This document shows positions 12,878-21,940 of a DNA stretch of 54,160 bases, in pieces. The stretch is from contig JALHQW010000055.1 of assembly GCA_022841745.1 (NCBI GenBank), forward strand, positions 1 to 54,160, read 5' to 3'. The first letter of the stretch is position 1. Every line of letters starts with the position of its first letter. The notes under the pieces are model-generated. The model made no database searches and had not been told where the DNA came from. It saw only the letters and a list, made by a program, of their open reading frames with translations. Origin of the DNA: Saprospiraceae bacterium. Its GTDB lineage: Bacteria > Bacteroidota > Bacteroidia > Chitinophagales > Saprospiraceae. The position numbers were made by a program, and so were the translations under genes.

Positions 12878-12909
12878 TTGACAATCTAATTTGTTCTCCC
12901 TTACCTTTG
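12878..12909 (+). promoter_or_regulatory. Bacteroidota-type promoter for the cysteine leader and sulfite-reduction operon
   Basis: TTG at 12878-12880 lies 21 bases before TACCTTTG at 12902-12909, which matches the Bacteroidota consensus TTG-N(17-23)-TAnnTTTG exactly. Transcription should begin about 5 bases after the -7 box, at or next to the ATG at 12914. The first leader peptide would therefore be leaderless or nearly so. It is the best promoter match in the window. Confidence 0.65.
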
Positions 12910-12913
12910 CCAC

Positions 12914-12991
12914 ATGATTTCAAACAATTCAAATATGTGTTGTTACTGTTGTCAAATCACCTTCACGGGATTTGGAATGGCCGCTATTTGA
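12914..12991 (+). CDS. Cysteine-rich leader peptide 1 (25 aa)
   Basis: A 25-codon ORF with cysteine codons at positions 9, 10, 12 and 13 (MCCYCCQ), ending with TGA at 12989-12991. No other function is plausible for so short a product. It is followed after 21 bases by an intrinsic terminator, the layout of a leader-peptide attenuator: ribosomes waiting at cysteine codons would let the downstream RNA refold. A candidate antiterminator is GGAATGGC (12974-12981), which lies after the Cys codons but before the stop and can pair at 7 of 8 positions with GCCTTTCC (13018-13025) in the terminator's left arm. Cysteine-codon leaders controlling sulfur genes are known from mycobacteria; I know of no established Bacteroidota example. 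Confidence 0.7.
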   Translation: MISNNSNMCCYCCQITFTGFGMAAI

Positions 12992-13012
12992 TGCTGAAAT
13001 CTGCCTGACATC

Positions 13013-13055
13013 AAAAAGCCTTTCCGGGTTCCGAACCGGAAAGGCTTTTTTGTTT
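13013..13055 (+). terminator. Intrinsic terminator 1 (attenuator)
   Basis: Arms 13013-13027 and 13036-13050 are perfect 15-base reverse complements (AAAAAGCCTTTCCGG against its complement) with loop GTTCCGAA, followed by TTGTTT. It lies 21 bases after leader peptide 1 and upstream of any structural gene, so it is placed to end transcripts early. Confidence 0.88.
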
Positions 13056-13130
13056 AGGCAATAACCTACTAAATTGATAGAATTAAAGGTATTTAAAAAC
13101 CTCTAACGCTATCATCACGAAACATTTTTC

Positions 13131-13220
13131 ATGAAAAATACCATGCATTGTTGCTGTTGTTGTACTGCTGCCATGTGCTGCCGCACAAGTGAACGAGGCG
13201 TTTCTCAACGCAAGCAATGA
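13131..13220 (+). CDS. Cysteine-rich leader peptide 2 (29 aa)
   Basis: A 29-codon ORF with cysteine codons 7-11 (five in a row) and 16-17, seven cysteines in all, and a basic tail; TGA at 13218-13220. No internal promoter of the TAnnTTTG form was seen between terminator 1 and this ORF, so it is probably on the same RNA as leader 1. A second terminator follows 27 bases later, and then the sulfite reductase gene. The AAAA-rich start region is typical for this phylum. It would report on cysteinyl-tRNA supply. An antiterminator that competes with terminator 2 is not obvious from pairing alone; a weak hairpin occupies 13219-13247. Confidence 0.75.
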   Translation: MKNTMHCCCCCTAAMCCRTSERGVSQRKQ

Positions 13221-13247
13221 TTTTCTTTCATTCCTAAGAAAAGAATC

Positions 13248-13286
13248 AAAGCCCGCTGAGCTAATCCTCAAGCGGGCTTTTCTTTT
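13248..13286 (+). terminator. Intrinsic terminator 2 (attenuator)
   Basis: Arms 13248-13257 (AAAGCCCGCT) and 13271-13280 (AGCGGGCTTT) pair perfectly; GAG/CTC extends the stem across a bulged A, and TCTTTTT follows as the U tract. It sits 27 bases after leader 2 and about 100 bases before the sulfite reductase start codon. Confidence 0.88.
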
Positions 13287-13288
13287 TG

Positions 13289-13376
13289 GTTGATAAAGTT
13301 GATGGGGTTGATAAGGGTTGATAATCAACCGAATAAACCCATCAACCATATCAACTTCATCAACCCTTATCAACAT
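13289..13376. repeat. Inverted GTTGAT-word repeat before sulfite reductase
   Basis: GTTGATNNN words run rightward at 13290-13325, and their reverse complements (ATCAACNNN) run at 13323-13374. One block of 16 bases (GTTGATAAGGGTTGAT against ATCAACCCTTATCAAC) is an exact inverted pair. It lies in the untranslated region, and a frame open through it is not part of the enzyme. Confidence 0.75.
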
Positions 13377-13382
13377 CTTAAT

Positions 13383-15509
13383 ATGAGTGTGACCAATCTC
13401 GACCCACGCAATATCCAAGACATCGTTGACCTTGGCAAACGAATCGAATCTTTCAAAAAAGGCGAAATTGACGCCGAGCGCTTCAAGCACTTCCGGCTCA
13501 CCCGTGGCGTGTATGGGCAACGGCAGCAGGGCGTCCACATGTTCCGCACCAAGCTGCCAATGGGCAAGCTGACCGCTCGACAGCTAGTGGCCCTCGCCGA
13601 TATTTCCGAAAAATACGCCACGGGCAACCTCCACCTCACCACCCGCCAAAACGTGCAGTTCCACTACGTGAAATTGGACGACGCAACGGCCATCTGGCGG
13701 GAAATGGCCGAGGTGGACCTGAACGCACGGGAGGCCTGTGGCAACACCGTCCGCAACGTGACGACCAGCGCCAATGCGGGCATTGACCCGCACGAGCCGT
13801 TCGACGTGACGCCCTACGCCAATGCGCTTTACGAGCATTTCCTGCGCAACCCGATTTGTCAGGAAATGGGCCGTAAAATCAAGATTGCCTTCTCGTCCAG
13901 CCACTTTGACACGGCCTATACCTACTTCCACGACTTTGGCTACATCCCAAAAATAGAAGGCGGGAAGCGGGGTTTCAAAATCGTAATTGGCGGCGGCCTC
14001 GGCGCACAGCCCTTGGTGGCACAGACGACCCACGAGTTCATCGAAGCGGACAAGTTCTTGCCGTTCACCGAGGCCGTCATCCGGGTCTTCGACCGGCTGG
14101 GAGAGCGGGAAAAGCGCCACAAGGCCCGCATGAAATTCTTAGTGAAAGACCTTGGCTTGGAGGAGTTCCTGAGCTTGGTCGAAGTAGAAAGCACCGCCGT
14201 TGCGCAGCAGACCATCCCCGTGAACCACGAGGCATGGGAAGAGGCGGAGCCACCCGTTTTTGACCCAAACTGGGCCGATGTGAAGGTCTCCGACCGGGAA
14301 TTCGACCGCTGGAAGGCAGCCAATGTTTTTTCCCAAAAACAGGCTGGGTTGTATGGTGTGAACATCAAATTGCCCCTCGGCAATATTGACGCCGAGCGTG
14401 CCCGCCAGTTCGCCATTGTGGTGAAAACCTACGCAGCCGACGACGTGCGCATCACCGTGAACCAAGGCTTCCTGCTACGCCACGTAAGGCCGGAGGCGCT
14501 CGCCCCACTCTACCTAGCGCTGAAAGAACTGGGCTTGGCCGACGTGGGCTTTGGTTCCATCGCCGACATCACCGCCTGCCCCGGCACCGATACCTGCAAC
14601 CTCGGCGTGACCAACAGCACGGCGCTCGCCACGGTGCTTGACCGCCTCGTTTCTTCGGAATACCCCGATTTGCTCCTCGAAAAGGACATCCAAATCAAAA
14701 TCAGCGGCTGCATGAACTCCTGCGGCCAGCACATGGCGGCACAGATTGGCTTCCACGGCAGTTCCATCAAAGTGGGCGGAAAAGTGGCCCCAGCCATGCA
14801 GGTCGTGCTCGGTGGTGGCATCGAGCCGGATGGCAAGAGCTATATCGGCGACAAGGTCATCAAGTTGCCAACGAAGCGTATCCCCGATGCCCTCCGCCTG
14901 TTATTGGATGATTTTTTGGCAAAAAAGCTGGACGGCCAAACCTTCAACGAATACTACTATGCCCAAGAAAAAATCTTCTTCTACGACCTGCTGAAGCCCC
15001 TCGCCAACACGGCCACACTGGACGACGAGGGCTTCCGTGATTGGGGCAACGTGGAGGCCGAATACGTGCAGGCCATCGGCGTGGGCGAGTGCGCAGGCGC
15101 TGCCATGGACGTGATTGCTACCATTCTCAACGACGCTGGCACAAAGCTCACCGATGCGGAGCAATACGTGCGGGAAGCCAACTGGCCGGGTACGATTTAC
15201 AATGCCTATGCCAGCATGGTCATCTCCGCCAAGGCACTGCTGCTCGCCGAGGACCTGCGCTGCAATTCGCACCAGAAAATCATTGAGGACTTCCAAAAAG
15301 AGTTCGTGGAAAAGGGCCTCATCACCTCCACCACTGACTTCGTGGCCTTGGCCACTGCCATCAACAAAAACGAGCCAAGCGATGATTTCGCCAGGGACTA
15401 CCTCAGTATTGCGAAAGCATTCCACGAAGAAGCCTACGACATGCGGGCCGCTCAGCTCATCGAACACGGGGCGGACAAGGCGGTGATTGCAGATTTTTAT
15501 CGGGCTTAA
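13383..15509 (+). CDS. Siroheme [4Fe-4S] nitrite/sulfite reductase with a C-terminal helical (HEPN-like) domain
   Basis: A 708-residue protein. Residues 1-510 contain the two ferredoxin-like half-domains and siroheme-binding region of the sulfite/nitrite reductase family. The iron-sulfur/siroheme ligands appear as C399 and C405 in ACPGTDTCNLG and C443 and C447 in SGCMNSCGQH; RTKLPMGKLTARQ and NVTTSANAGIDP are substrate- and siroheme-side motifs. Residues 590-708 (for instance YNAYASMVISAKALLLAEDL) resemble an HEPN-type helical bundle. Reduction of sulfite to sulfide for cysteine is most likely given the APS reductase and siroheme genes downstream; nitrite is an alternative. ATG 13383 is chosen because an in-frame start at 13290 would translate the spacer repeat. 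It opens a run that continues to hemL. Confidence 0.9.
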   Translation: MSVTNLDPRNIQDIVDLGKRIESFKKGEIDAERFKHFRLTRGVYGQRQQGVHMFRTKLPMGKLTARQLVALADISEKYATGNLHLTTRQNVQFHYVKLDDATAIWREMAEVDLNAREACGNTVRNVTTSANAGIDPHEPFDVTPYANALYEHFLRNPICQEMGRKIKIAFSSSHFDTAYTYFHDFGYIPKIEGGKRGFKIVIGGGLGAQPLVAQTTHEFIEADKFLPFTEAVIRVFDRLGEREKRHKARMKFLVKDLGLEEFLSLVEVESTAVAQQTIPVNHEAWEEAEPPVFDPNWADVKVSDREFDRWKAANVFSQKQAGLYGVNIKLPLGNIDAERARQFAIVVKTYAADDVRITVNQGFLLRHVRPEALAPLYLALKELGLADVGFGSIADITACPGTDTCNLGVTNSTALATVLDRLVSSEYPDLLLEKDIQIKISGCMNSCGQHMAAQIGFHGSSIKVGGKVAPAMQVVLGGGIEPDGKSYIGDKVIKLPTKRIPDALRLLLDDFLAKKLDGQTFNEYYYAQEKIFFYDLLKPLANTATLDDEGFRDWGNVEAEYVQAIGVGECAGAAMDVIATILNDAGTKLTDAEQYVREANWPGTIYNAYASMVISAKALLLAEDLRCNSHQKIIEDFQKEFVEKGLITSTTDFVALATAINKNEPSDDFARDYLSIAKAFHEEAYDMRAAQLIEHGADKAVIADFYRA

Positions 15510-15617: not shown

Positions 15618-16400
15618 ATGATTCATCCAAAACTAACCCTCGTCGGCGCAGGCCCCGGAGACCCGGAACTCATCACCCTCAAGGGCATCCGGGCACTGGA
15701 AGCGGCGGACGTATTGCTCTACGACGCCCTTGCCAACGACGATTTGCTGGCATTCGCCAAAAACGCCAAGGTCATCGAGTACGTGGGCAAACGGCAGGGC
15801 GACCACTCGATGCAACAGGAGGCCATCAACGAGGCCATCGTGCGCTATGCACTCAGCCACGGCCATGTGGTGCGGCTAAAGGGTGGCGACCCCTTCGTGT
15901 TCGGACGGGGCTTCGAGGAGTTGGAGTTTGCTGCGCAACACGGCATCGAAGGGACGGTGGTGCCCGGTGTTTCTAGCGCCACTTCGCTGCTGGGCTTGCT
16001 GAACATCCCCATCACGCACCGGGGTGTCAGCCGCAGCTTCCATGTGTTCAGCGCCAGCACGAAGGACGGCGAGTTGAGCGACGAAATCCTCGATTCCGTA
16101 CACCTGCAAGGCACGAGGGTGGTGCTGATGGGCTTGCAACATTTGGATAAAATCGCTGCACTGTACCACCAGCATGGCTTGGCTGAACTGCCCGTGGTGG
16201 TCATCCAAAACGGGTCGTTGCCGGAGCAGCGGACGGCATTCGGCACGATGTCAACGATTGAGGCCGCCGTTGCCGAAAACGGCATCAAAACACCCGCCAT
16301 CATTGTGATTGGCGAGGTGGTTTCACTGAAATCGTCATTGGCTTTGCCGTCATTAGACATTAGTCATTTGTCATTGGGAGCATCGCCAAATGAACAATGA
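15618..16400 (+). CDS. cobA: Uroporphyrinogen-III C-methyltransferase
   Basis: A 260-residue enzyme that adds two methyl groups from S-adenosylmethionine to uroporphyrinogen III, giving precorrin-2, the branch point to siroheme. Conserved blocks: VGAGPGDPELITLKG (SAM loop), YDALANDDLL, VRLKGGDPFVFGRG and VPGVSSATS, then IPITHRG and GEVVSL. The core ends near residue 240; the last residues, LDISHLSLGASPNEQ, come from the TCATTTGTCATTGG spacer repeat and have no family counterpart. It lies between sulfite reductase and the precorrin-2 dehydrogenase gene, giving a direct link between siroheme supply and its user. The stand-alone form (without the CysG dehydrogenase) is usual when a separate dehydrogenase follows. 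Confidence 0.93.
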   Translation: MIHPKLTLVGAGPGDPELITLKGIRALEAADVLLYDALANDDLLAFAKNAKVIEYVGKRQGDHSMQQEAINEAIVRYALSHGHVVRLKGGDPFVFGRGFEELEFAAQHGIEGTVVPGVSSATSLLGLLNIPITHRGVSRSFHVFSASTKDGELSDEILDSVHLQGTRVVLMGLQHLDKIAALYHQHGLAELPVVVIQNGSLPEQRTAFGTMSTIEAAVAENGIKTPAIIVIGEVVSLKSSLALPSLDISHLSLGASPNEQ

Positions 16401-16470
16401 CCTCAAATGACCAATGACCAACGACGGCGAAGCCAAATGACCAATAACAAATGACGATTTACAAATGACT
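16343..16470. repeat. Repeats of ATGACAAATGACCA words across the cobA end and spacer
   Basis: TCATTAGACATTAGTCATTT (about 16350-16369) and TCATTTGTCATTGG lie inside the end of the cobA gene; their inverted counterparts (AATGACC, CAAATGACCAATAAC, ACAAATGACT) follow in the spacer. The ATG used by the next gene lies in the last of these words. Confidence 0.75.
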
Positions 16471-17052
16471 AATCAAAAAAACACCTTGTTCCCCATTTTC
16501 CTGAAGGCACACCAGCTTAGGTTCCTCATTGTGGGGGCGGGCTATGTCTGCGAGGAAAAGCTCAATTTTTTGCTGAAAAGCAGCCCGTTGACCCACGTCA
16601 CCATCGTGGCGCCTATGGTGCGGCCAGAGGTGCGGGCAGTCATTGCGAAGTACGAAGCACCGAACGTGCAGCTGGTGGAGCGGGAGTTCCAAGCGCAGGA
16701 TGTAAAAGGGCACCAAATCGTGATTGCGGCAACTTGCATCGAGTCGGTGAACGCCGCCGTGAAGGCCAGTGCCAACGCTGAAAACGTGCTGGTGAACGTG
16801 GCCGACGACCCGCCCCGCTGCGATTTTTACATGGGCGGCATTGTGAGCAAGGGCAACGTAAAAATCGCTATTTCGACCAACGGAAAAGCGCCCACGCTGA
16901 CAAAGCGGCTGCGCCAGTTTTTCGAGGAAATGCTGCCCGATGAATTGGACGAATTGAGCGAAACGCTCAACGCCTATCGCCAGACGCTGAAGGGCGATTT
17001 TGAAACGAAAGTTAACAATTTGAATGACTTGACTAAAGCACTCATTTCATGA
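16465..17052 (+). CDS. Precorrin-2 dehydrogenase/sirohydrochlorin ferrochelatase-type protein (CysG N-terminal domain)
   Basis: A 195-residue protein matching Met8p and the CysG N-terminal part. It begins with the Rossmann nucleotide site LRFLIVGAGYVCEEKLNFLL, then IVAPMVRPEV, DDPPRCDFYMGGIVSKGNVK and AISTNGKAPTLTKRLR. It oxidises precorrin-2 to sirohydrochlorin with NAD+; related proteins also insert iron to make siroheme. No separate chelatase gene is seen, so iron insertion by this protein is plausible. ATG 16465 is chosen for the MTNQKNTLFPIFLKA start. Its stop overlaps the next ATG by 4 bases (ATGA), so translation is coupled to the APS-type reductase. Confidence 0.88.
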   Translation: MTNQKNTLFPIFLKAHQLRFLIVGAGYVCEEKLNFLLKSSPLTHVTIVAPMVRPEVRAVIAKYEAPNVQLVEREFQAQDVKGHQIVIAATCIESVNAAVKASANAENVLVNVADDPPRCDFYMGGIVSKGNVKIAISTNGKAPTLTKRLRQFFEEMLPDELDELSETLNAYRQTLKGDFETKVNNLNDLTKALIS

Positions 17053-17759
17053 CACTCGCAAAGGAAATACTGCAACCAAAGCCCAAACAAATAAGCATCA
17101 ATTCACTGAATCAGCGCTTCGACAAGTTGCGACCGCTCGAAGGGCTGCGCCGCTTGTACCAGCTTTTTGAGGAGGAGGACGTCTTGGTGACGACTTCGTT
17201 TGGCACCAAGTCCATTTACCTCATCCATTTGGTGGCGCAGGTGAACCCCGGCCAGAGGGTCTATTTCGTGGACACGGGCTTCCATTTCGAGGAGACGTTG
17301 CGCTACAAGGACATGATTGCCGACCTGTACGACGTGGACATCATCGCCCTGCATCCCGATGTCGAGCCGCACCGCCTCACTGCCGAAGAAGAGTGGTGGA
17401 AGGAACACCCCCGCATGTGCTGCACCATCAACAAGATTGCGCCGCTCGACCCCGTTATTGCGCAGCACAAAGTCTGGGTGAGCAGCCTGATGGCCTACCA
17501 AAACGAGTTCCGGGCGGGCCTGCGCATGTTTGAAAAGCAGGGCGATATTTTGAAATACCAGCCACTGCTGCACGTCACGGAGGCCGAGTTCAACCAGCAA
17601 CTGAACCAATTGCAACTGCCCTTGCACCCGCTCGCACACGTGGGCTACGGCTCCATCGGTTGCACCCATTGCACCGCAAAAGGCGAAGGCCGGGCAGGCC
17701 GCTGGGCAGGCCAGGGGCAGACGGAGTGCGGGCTGCATGTGAAATATTATAAGAAGTAA
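17049..17759 (+). CDS. cysH: APS/PAPS reductase (thioredoxin-dependent, iron-sulfur type)
   Basis: A 236-residue enzyme reducing activated sulfate to sulfite, the step before sulfite reductase. The ATP-pyrophosphatase-type nucleotide loop is TTSFGTKS near residue 50; VDTGFHF and FRAGLRM follow. Two cysteine pairs, C124-C125 (RMCCTINK) and C205-x2-C208 (IGCTHCT), bind a [4Fe-4S] cluster, and C227 in TECGLH is the redox cysteine. Presence of the cluster pairs indicates the adenylyl-sulfate (APS) reductase group, not the E. coli PAPS type. No ATP-sulfurylase gene is visible nearby, so sulfate activation is encoded elsewhere. It overlaps the preceding stop and is followed by a large inverted repeat before hemA. 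Confidence 0.92.
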   Translation: MTLAKEILQPKPKQISINSLNQRFDKLRPLEGLRRLYQLFEEEDVLVTTSFGTKSIYLIHLVAQVNPGQRVYFVDTGFHFEETLRYKDMIADLYDVDIIALHPDVEPHRLTAEEEWWKEHPRMCCTINKIAPLDPVIAQHKVWVSSLMAYQNEFRAGLRMFEKQGDILKYQPLLHVTEAEFNQQLNQLQLPLHPLAHVGYGSIGCTHCTAKGEGRAGRWAGQGQTECGLHVKYYKK

Positions 17760-17844
17760 CCTCACTCCTGCCCCTCTCCTGCGAGGAGAGGGGTGGTACA
17801 GTGCCTAACCCCTCTCCTCGCAGGAGAGGGGCAGGAGTGAGGTT
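17758..17844. repeat. Perfect 37-bp inverted repeat between cysH and hemA
   Basis: Arms 17758-17794 and 17808-17844 are identical reverse complements with a 13-base loop. The outer part reads AACCTCACTCCTGCCCC and the inner part contains CTCCTGCGAGGAG. The left arm overlaps the cysH stop codon. It is a candidate transcription or RNA-stability boundary between the sulfur genes and the hem genes, or a mobile palindrome. Confidence 0.95.
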
Positions 17845-17859
17845 AACACCATCAACAAA

Positions 17860-21568: not shown

Positions 21569-21940
21569 ATGAGCGAACAGAAGTACATTCCACTGGAGGA
21601 ACTTGACATTTATATACTGGCTAGGGAAATAGGAGAAATCGTTTGGAATACAGTTGATGAGTGGGAGTATTTCCCAAAAATCACTGTTGAAAAACAATGG
21701 ACAGAAGCTGCTGACAGCATCGCCGCCAATATTTCAGAAGGGTATGGCCGCTTTCATTTCAAGGACAAACGCAATTTTTACTTTAATTCCAGAGGCTCTT
21801 TGAGTGAAACAAAAACTTGGGCAACCAAAGCCAAAAACCGAAAACTACTCAGTGAGGCCGACTATTCTTCTCTCTATGAAAAGCTCAAGAAACTACATTT
21901 AGGGCTCAACAACCATATAAAAGCCTTGCCTTTGAAATAG
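21569..21940 (+). CDS. Four-helix-bundle protein (23S rRNA intervening-sequence type)
   Basis: A 123-residue protein of the four-helix-bundle family first found as intervening sequences in 23S rRNA genes. Typical features are YILAREIGEIVWN, a long second helix (QWTEAADSIAANISEGYGR), then YFNSRGSLSETKTW and LYEKLKKLHLGLNNHIKAL. Relatives include the accessory protein (Avd) of diversity-generating retroelements, but no reverse transcriptase is nearby. Function unknown. It sits between hemB and hemL, flanked by GAAATT repeats at 21486-21515 and an inverted pair at 21942-22015, so it looks inserted into an otherwise ordinary hem run. Confidence 0.85.
   Translation: MSEQKYIPLEELDIYILAREIGEIVWNTVDEWEYFPKITVEKQWTEAADSIAANISEGYGRFHFKDKRNFYFNSRGSLSETKTWATKAKNRKLLSEADYSSLYEKLKKLHLGLNNHIKALPLK

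Follow-up and report, generated by a model that had tools for sequence, protein, structure and literature searches.

The window analysed here is the whole stretch of 54,160 nucleotides (nt) from a Saprospiraceae bacterium (contig JALHQW010000055.1), in which two short open reading frames (ORFs) rich in cysteine (Cys) codons, each followed by an intrinsic terminator, precede the gene of a siroheme sulfite/nitrite reductase (sir). We consider this leader region very probably to be a pair of ribosome-mediated transcription attenuators in series, carried by one transcript and sensing charged cysteinyl-tRNA. The reading is based on conservation of the units among relatives, on antiterminator pairing anchored to the run of Cys codons, and on a promoter motif that precedes the first unit only; it agrees with the original prediction, which had been made from the letters of the window.

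In the proposed mechanism, transcription would start just ahead of ORF1. With ample Cys-tRNA, the ribosome would reach the stop codon and cover the RNA just past the Cys codons, terminator 1 would fold, and RNA polymerase would stop. With scarce Cys-tRNA, the ribosome would halt in the Cys run and leave the RNA from about 12 nt beyond exposed, which could pair with the emerging 5' arm of the terminator as an antiterminator and allow the polymerase to continue. ORF2 and terminator 2 would repeat the test, and sir, cobA, the cysG-like gene and cysH would be transcribed only if both were passed. Translation of the ORFs, stalling, termination with readthrough, and multiplication of the two steps are what we infer from this layout. 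Since the neighbouring genes make siroheme and reduce phosphoadenosine or adenosine phosphosulfate ((P)APS), the operon is a fitting target for cysteine control, and most likely sulfide for cysteine would be made only when cysteine is short.

Architecture of the leader region

The features are listed in Table 1. Both ORFs lie on the strand of the reductase gene and hold four (ORF1, pattern CCYCC in the peptide) and seven (ORF2) Cys codons, in agreement with the original prediction; the spacing it gave for the terminators also agrees with sequence and folding, as does the order of the genes from the reductase and siroheme genes through hemL with the family matches. The core stem of terminator 1 begins 21 nt past the ORF1 stop and is extended by folding to a hairpin at 13010-13053, and the stem of terminator 2 begins 27 nt past the ORF2 stop, with -23.7 kcal/mol including outer pairs. 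Because of a bulge, terminator 2 was missed by a simple hairpin scan and recovered by the folding search. With a cluster of end-product codons and an intrinsic terminator ahead of the structural genes, each unit has two of the sequence features of a leader-peptide attenuator.

ORF1 is preceded by a motif of the Bacteroidota-type promoter (TTG-spacer-TAnnTTTG). The ATG of ORF1 lies 4 nt past the -7 box in the window and in the relative L002 (reductase 83% identical), so the window ORF1 is nearly leaderless; this is not general, the median gap between -7 box and ATG being 25 nt (31 loci). ORF2 cannot be leaderless, as it lies inside the transcript. A palindromic GTTGAT repeat fills most of the space between terminator 2 and the reductase; it is outside the conserved unit and absent from the short gap of L002. 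The repeat resembles a dispersed mobile palindrome and may influence the translation start of the reductase. In an Rfam search, no family reached the gathering score anywhere in the window, and thus no T-box or other Rfam cis-regulatory RNA was matched.

Table 1. Features of the leader region and of the first genes of the operon (window positions)
Feature	Position	Strand	Description	Basis
Bacteroidota-type promoter	12878..12909	+	TTG 12878-12880, N21 spacer, TACCTTTG 12902-12909	motif match
Leader ORF1	12914..12991	+	MISNNSNMCCYCCQITFTGFGMAAI, 25 codons, Cys codons 9, 10, 12, 13 (12938-12943, 12947-12952)	ORF list
Antiterminator 1, 5' strand	12965..12982	+	predicted partner 13017-13034, -22.8 kcal/mol, z -3.9	duplex and fold
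Intrinsic terminator 1	13013..13055	+	15-bp core stem 13013-13050 and T tract	sequence, folding
Leader ORF2	13131..13220	+	MKNTMHCCCCCTAAMCCRTSERGVSQRKQ, 29 codons, Cys codons 7-11 and 16-17 (13149-13163, 13176-13181)	ORF list
Proposed antiterminator 2, 5' strand	13204..13215	+	CTCA (with 13257-13260), CG and GC pair with the terminator arm	nascent fold, -13.1 kcal/mol; weak, non-significant by itself
Intrinsic terminator 2	13248..13287	+	stem 13248-13281, one bulge, T-rich tail	folding
Dispersed palindromic GTTGAT repeat	13286..13380	+	between terminator 2 and reductase	52 matches in the organism's genome, fold -37.5 kcal/mol
Siroheme sulfite/nitrite reductase (sir), regulated gene	13383..15509	+		NIR_SIR families
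cobA (uroporphyrinogen-III C-methyltransferase)	15618..16400	+		family match
Siroheme synthase N-terminal-type protein (cysG-N/Met8-like)	16465..17052	+		family match
cysH (PAPS/APS reductase)	17049..17759	+		family match

Conservation upstream of the reductase

Relatives of the reductase were collected from 60 genomes near the window (17 matched) and from a wider contig collection (80 loci kept), one locus from a viral-contig scan being left out. The 96 loci used were reduced to 90 distinct ones by removal of three duplicate contigs (L049, L052, L066) and of three loci with less than 250 nt upstream (L082, L084, L098). ORFs with at least 4 Cys within seven residues were counted as poly-Cys. 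By this measure, 57 of the 90 loci carry an upstream poly-Cys ORF (two in 30, one in 27) and 33 carry none; conservation in relatives, the lack of which had been named beforehand among the findings that would refute the prediction, was thus found. A strict hairpin scan detected an ORF together with a terminator in 50 of the 90 upstream regions, with two units in 22. The tandem form may be undercounted, as some one-unit loci (L025, L027, L050) have little upstream DNA.

Poly-Cys ORFs occurred in 11 of 1800 dinucleotide shuffles, 1 of 90 reverse strands and none of 86 downstream windows, and the combination of a Cys-cluster ORF with a terminator in 0/1800 shuffles of the upstream regions, 0/90 reverse strands and 0/86 downstream windows. 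When 92 reductases were placed on a tree (built by a quick method and rooted at the midpoint) and labelled by a looser definition that includes three-Cys ORFs with a terminator, the labels were found to be clustered. On the mostly Saprospiraceae side, two units are present in 23 loci, one in 14 and none in nine (eight of them the Neolewinella/Lewinella clade), and one locus is unscored; on the other side, two units are present in seven loci, one in 15 and none in 21, and two loci are unscored. That chance, or ordinary gene-end terminators next to random small ORFs, should have produced the layout is a negligible prospect: short ORFs are indeed common, and the genome of the window organism contains 17 strings of five Cys codons, but all controls are near zero, the label is clustered on the tree, and the complementarity described below is specific to each locus. 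A chance origin was consequently rejected on the strength of shuffles, reverse strands, downstream windows and swapped partners.

In an even sample of the phylum, the reductase was found in 60 of 394 genomes at E<=1e-60. Of these upstream regions, 56 were newly scanned, three being already in the first set and one omitted; four contained a four-Cys ORF and eight a three-Cys ORF, two of the four-Cys loci, L260 and L261, being on contigs equal in length to those of L102 and L075 in the first set. A Cys-cluster ORF with terminator is present in three genomes of other classes (L309, L310, L312), so the design may predate the class.

Terminators and alternative pairing

For the folding analysis, 86 ORFs were considered and 12 left out (seven without terminator, two with a terminator weaker than -15 kcal/mol, three Pontibacter units). 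The remaining 74 units, including both window units, have terminators of -15 kcal/mol or better, with averages between -21 and -24 kcal/mol. In each unit, the RNA segment between the last Cys codon and the stem was hybridized in silico with the 5' arm and loop of the terminator, and the result was compared with 300 shuffles. Pairing exceeds that of the shuffles with a mean z of -2.46, at p<0.05 in 49/74 and p<0.01 in 24/74 units. Segments paired with their own terminators give -14.25 kcal/mol, with swapped partners from other loci -9.31 kcal/mol (p=3.5e-13); as swapping weakens the pairing, segment and terminator arm vary together.

The pairing begins at a median of 12 nt past the last Cys codon (quartiles 8-13), and within 8-19 nt in 57/74 units, compared to 25% in shuffles (p=7e-21). 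Measured from the Cys run, its start has a standard deviation (sd) of 5.1, and measured from the stop codon, one of 13.7. A distance of about 12 nt from the stalled codons is approximately that of the leading edge of a ribosome; the pairing site is therefore anchored to the Cys run at the position that stalling at the Cys codons requires. Geometry and pairing results look the same when near-duplicates are removed (65 units).

An antiterminator that has a further hairpin inside it is scored too low by the duplex test; for this reason, nascent-RNA folds were added, with the RNA exposed from 6 nt behind the Cys run. In these, 64% of the terminator arm is paired upstream, compared to 39% in shuffles (p<0.05 in 36/74). 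The comparison with a ribosome at the stop codon, which held in 74/74 units, is partly true by construction because less RNA is then exposed. Window unit 1 has a strong antiterminator, with a nascent fold of -26.0 kcal/mol and a duplex z of -3.9, which disappears from the fold when the ribosome covers the stop codon. An antiterminator mutually exclusive with the terminator was accordingly found for the family and for window unit 1.

Probable arrangement in series and leader codons

The promoter motif (up to 1 mismatch, spacer 19-21) precedes 34 of 53 first units, with 7.3 expected from shuffles, and its spacer is exactly 20 nt in 28 of the 34; before second units it was found in 0/28 cases, with 1.0 expected. 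L093, L094 and L096 were left out of these counts. The search regions average 83 nt before second and 148 nt before first units, a difference for which the shuffles allow. A bare exact -7 box lies before 14/53 first units (5.6 expected). Because the promoter precedes first units only, there is most likely a single start, from which the polymerase passes unit 1 and then unit 2; on motif evidence, the tandem character follows from the lack of a Bacteroidota-type promoter between the units.

First and second units are also distinguished by their terminator arms, which contain GCCT in 22/25 first units, and GCCC in 13, GCCT in 6 and another sequence in 9 of the second units; single units resemble first units (GCCT in 16/21). 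This difference by position suggests an old duplication, retained as two distinct elements.

Alignment of related leader ORFs in 17 pairs gave identity in 101/120 Cys columns and in 225/359 other columns (p=8e-6). This contrast is inflated, since the presence of Cys clusters was the criterion by which the ORFs were selected, and since runs are aligned with runs. The codon has changed synonymously in 19 of the 101 identical Cys columns, and the identity would fit selection on Cys content. TGT is commoner among the Cys codons of leaders (397/586) than of reductases (247/457).

The longest Cys run varies between 2 and 11 across the leader peptides. Runs of up to 11, together with one unit of the same build that precedes a redox gene (a 1-Cys-type peroxiredoxin) in one relative, could point to the nascent poly-Cys peptide itself as a sensor of metal, oxidant, sulfite or thiol state, arresting the ribosome independently of tRNA charging. 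Arrest peptides usually need a fixed motif, however; the leader peptides share only Cys (by eye), with runs of such different length, and window ORF1 has only CCYCC, yet its unit has one of the stronger antiterminators. We find a peptide sensor improbable.

Weighing of the proposed series arrangement

Besides the bias in the Cys-column contrast, several observations weigh against attenuators in series. The 33 loci without a four-Cys ORF include all eight rows of the Neolewinella/Lewinella clade, and none of the 29 sampled genomes of family f24 has such an ORF, so the operon can exist without the leader. Two ORFs are accompanied by one terminator in L036, L039 and L045, and three Pontibacter/Botryobacter loci (L093, L094, L096) carry poly-Cys ORFs without convincing terminators. 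The stem of the terminator is positioned equally loosely with respect to the Cys run (sd 9.7 nt) and to the stop codon (sd 9.8 nt), and a bare exact -7 box precedes 1/28 second units (1.4 expected). In the window, a generic sigma-70 scan gave one weak E. coli-type match between the units on the plus strand (13055-13083, 9/12); the claim that no usual promoter separates the units thus stands for the Bacteroidota-type motif, present only before ORF1, and has to be qualified for the E. coli type. Finally, window unit 2 scores poorly in both pairing tests (duplex p=0.66, z +0.41; arm pairing equal to that of shuffles, p=0.48).

The Pontibacter/Botryobacter loci, as well as the nearly leaderless ORF1 of the window, would suit a control at the level of translation, in which the poly-Cys ORFs act via coupling or RNA structure and the terminators are minor; mycobacterial cysteine genes are described, in the part of the source available, as being under translation attenuation (PMC13236596). 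This is improbable here, given the energies of the terminators behind the ORFs in 74 units, the complementarity between the stall-exposed segment and the terminator arm, and the distance of 162 nt from the end of window ORF2 to the reductase start, part of which is the inserted repeat.

The values for window unit 2, and the palindromic repeat that landed directly behind it, leave some room for a reading in which unit 1 alone is functional in the window organism and unit 2 is a decaying copy that terminates but no longer antiterminates. We regard this as rather unlikely. The Cys codons and terminator of unit 2 are intact, with counterparts in L002, where the antiterminator of unit 2 is borderline (p=0.11 in the duplex test, 0.049 in the fold); taken together, second units score well (mean z -2.22, p<0.05 in 18/28); and a purely terminating unit would shut the operon. 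The best fold of window unit 2 (-13.1 kcal/mol) encloses an inner hairpin, around which the terminator arm is paired with CTCA and with two GC/CG steps. As the L002 counterpart scores better, we hold antitermination by window unit 2, predicted from this fold and from that relative, to be likely.

For the reading of two attenuators in series, the ORFs, the terminators, the one promoter motif and, in the family, the alternative pairing anchored to the Cys run are established by sequence and comparison. A more far-reaching version, which we think has about as much for it as against it, would see here a steep, protein-free cysteine switch: two old, non-interchangeable attenuators fixed in series on the Saprospiraceae side, whose multiplying readthroughs would give a sharp response of low leak, with runs of up to 11 Cys codons setting the threshold. 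A large share of the Bacteroidota would use this switch as the standard means by which cysteine controls sulfite reduction, and it would occasionally have been captured by a thiol gene such as the peroxiredoxin.

Occurrence before other genes

In the genome of the window organism, the 17 matches of the five-Cys-codon pattern compare to 20 in the reversed control, so there is no enrichment, and none of the other matches there has a terminator within 80 nt past the stop. In 11 relatives, a six-Cys-codon pattern was scanned and 18 regions outside the reductase locus were examined; they are mostly apparent out-of-frame matches inside or against other genes. In three of the 18 (L153, L159, L163), the Cys frame is followed within 120 nt by a terminator-like hairpin, and only L163 has the layout of a unit. 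With one such layout in 18 regions and no enrichment in the window genome, the idea of a genome-wide poly-Cys regulon was rejected.

A unit was found in 0/30 CysD loci (one without upstream DNA), in 0/30 CysK/M-family loci, of which only 10/30 pass the family cut-off and one has a four-Cys ORF without terminator, and in 1 of 22 scanned peroxiredoxin loci (22 of 30 fetched, the eight weakest matches being left out). Within this set of genes, the unit hardly occurs outside the sulfite reductase operon. L163 (G007:C46, minus strand; the same place as L169) has six Cys codons and a terminator, followed by the 1-Cys-type peroxiredoxin, and its segment CGGAAAGGC matches the terminator arm by eye; it is a second gene with the same design. 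L157 (G027:C210, about 383-851) contains an open frame of 155 residues, about 138 from the likely start, that ends in nine cysteines. About 1.2 kb downstream lies an ORF that by eye looks like a YcaO protein, and the frame might be the precursor of a thiazole-type peptide.

Operon genes and further observations

The gene order in the window is sir, cobA, cysG-N-like, cysH, hemA, hemC, hemD, hemB, a 23S rRNA-intervening-sequence-type protein gene, and hemL. The solved structures nearest to the reductase are ferredoxin nitrite reductases, with sulfite reductases ranking lower, and none of the curated sulfite or nitrite reductase models searched reached its cut-off; the reductase is called a sulfite reductase because of its context, with cobA, the siroheme-synthase N-terminal-type gene and cysH downstream. 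Among the 96 loci (duplicates included), cobA was matched in 88, the cysG-N-like gene in 84 and cysH in 52, part of the missing matches being due to the ends of the fetched DNA. The downstream DNA of five relatives contains cobA in 5/5, the cysG-N-like gene in 5/5 and cysH in 4/5. Matches to hem genes are limited to one of the five, the nearest (reductase 83% identical), with hemA and a partial hemL match at 60%; the suggestion that cysteine supply would also govern tetrapyrrole genes as far as hemL is not borne out as a general feature.

In the window, the gap between cysH and hemA (17760-17859) consists of a long, strong inverted repeat (CCTCACTCCTGCCCC... with its complement) that lacks a T tract. 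The gene of the 23S rRNA-intervening-sequence-type protein (PF05635) lies at 21569-21940, between hemB and hemL.

Other arrangements were seen upstream of the reductase in relatives. In the Neolewinella/Lewinella clade, the last 120 nt or so before the reductase contain, instead of Cys leaders, a stretch conserved by eye and resembling CCGTTCATATGATCGTTTGATCCTG...TCGAACG (clear in L013, L055, L059 and L069, partial in L040 and L053), a candidate for a different cis-regulatory RNA, which had no Rfam match in the four loci searched. Larkinella and Rudanella loci (L079, L086, L089, L092) have a terminator-like hairpin before the reductase, without a Cys ORF and with a promoter-like site close ahead (by eye), where another type of attenuation may operate. 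Six loci of family f22 (L264, L265, L269, L270, L271, L275) have a terminator that lies some 95 to 60 nt upstream of the reductase and is preceded by no more than two or three Cys codons (judged partly by eye), perhaps a weaker form of the Cys-leader device. In L093, L094 and L096, the RNA after the poly-Cys ORF looks pyrimidine-rich, and these loci may use Rho or control at the level of translation.

Relation to known systems

To our knowledge, little has been published on how Bacteroidota control sulfur assimilation. In many lineages of the phylum, this reductase is preceded by one recurring cis-acting RNA design. Some relatives carry two units ahead of it, some one and some none, which offers a natural experiment on what the repetition of an attenuator does to the response. 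The pairing start about 12 nt past the Cys run could serve as an indirect ruler for the stalled ribosome in Bacteroidota, and the short Cys-leader ORFs could be entered into annotation pipelines.

Ribosome-mediated transcription attenuators are known from amino-acid operons of the trp, his, leu and ilv type. With these, the present units share a leader peptide of end-product codons, an intrinsic terminator and an alternative antiterminator exposed by stalling; they differ in the cysteine signal, the sulfite reductase operon, the occurrence in Bacteroidota, and the presence of two complete units in series. For mycobacterial cys operons, polycysteine leaders were reportedly described by Canestrari in 2020. 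As far as the available part of a further account goes, these leaders, which the original prediction had mentioned, likewise place runs of Cys codons in ORFs before cysteine-pathway genes, without conserved terminator hairpins (PMC1262725). In contrast to that arrangement, for which translation attenuation is described (PMC13236596, in part), intrinsic terminators and antiterminators are present behind the ORFs studied here.

Closer in its parts is the uORFC-8-2 motif before cysS in Rhodobacterales, for which stalling at low Cys-tRNA is predicted and in which Cys codons in a short upstream ORF are followed by an intrinsic terminator (PMC8632094). According to the available part of that source, it differs in having two Cys codons, a single unit, a cysteinyl-tRNA synthetase gene as target and an alphaproteobacterial host, and no tandem is noted. 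Within the phylum, leader-peptide attenuation has been suggested from transcriptome data for amino-acid operons of Flavobacterium psychrophilum, the same kind of mechanism as proposed here, with no cysteine or tandem case noted in the part available (PMC9723704). Among the papers listed in searches of the open-licence literature, none was seen to report cysteine attenuators in Bacteroidota, or a series of two leader-peptide attenuators that respond to one and the same amino acid. The mechanism is known; the phylum and the tandem layout are new so far as that literature shows, as had been supposed at the outset.

Repeated sensors in one leader are known from tandem T-boxes and tandem riboswitches, some of them for more digital control (PMC7583486, PMC9481103), and B. 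clausii metE is a tandem case with two terminators (PMC3641672). By these partly available accounts, the RNA of T-boxes and riboswitches binds tRNA or ligand directly, with no leader peptide (PMC7583486, PMC9481103). The Salmonella mgtCBR leader, which also has two leader ORFs in one RNA, is described in the available part of its source as combining tandem attenuators for different signals, ATP and proline, that act additively (PMC3641672). In the leader studied here, by contrast, both ORFs carry Cys codons and each has its own terminator, for which reason the two units should multiply.

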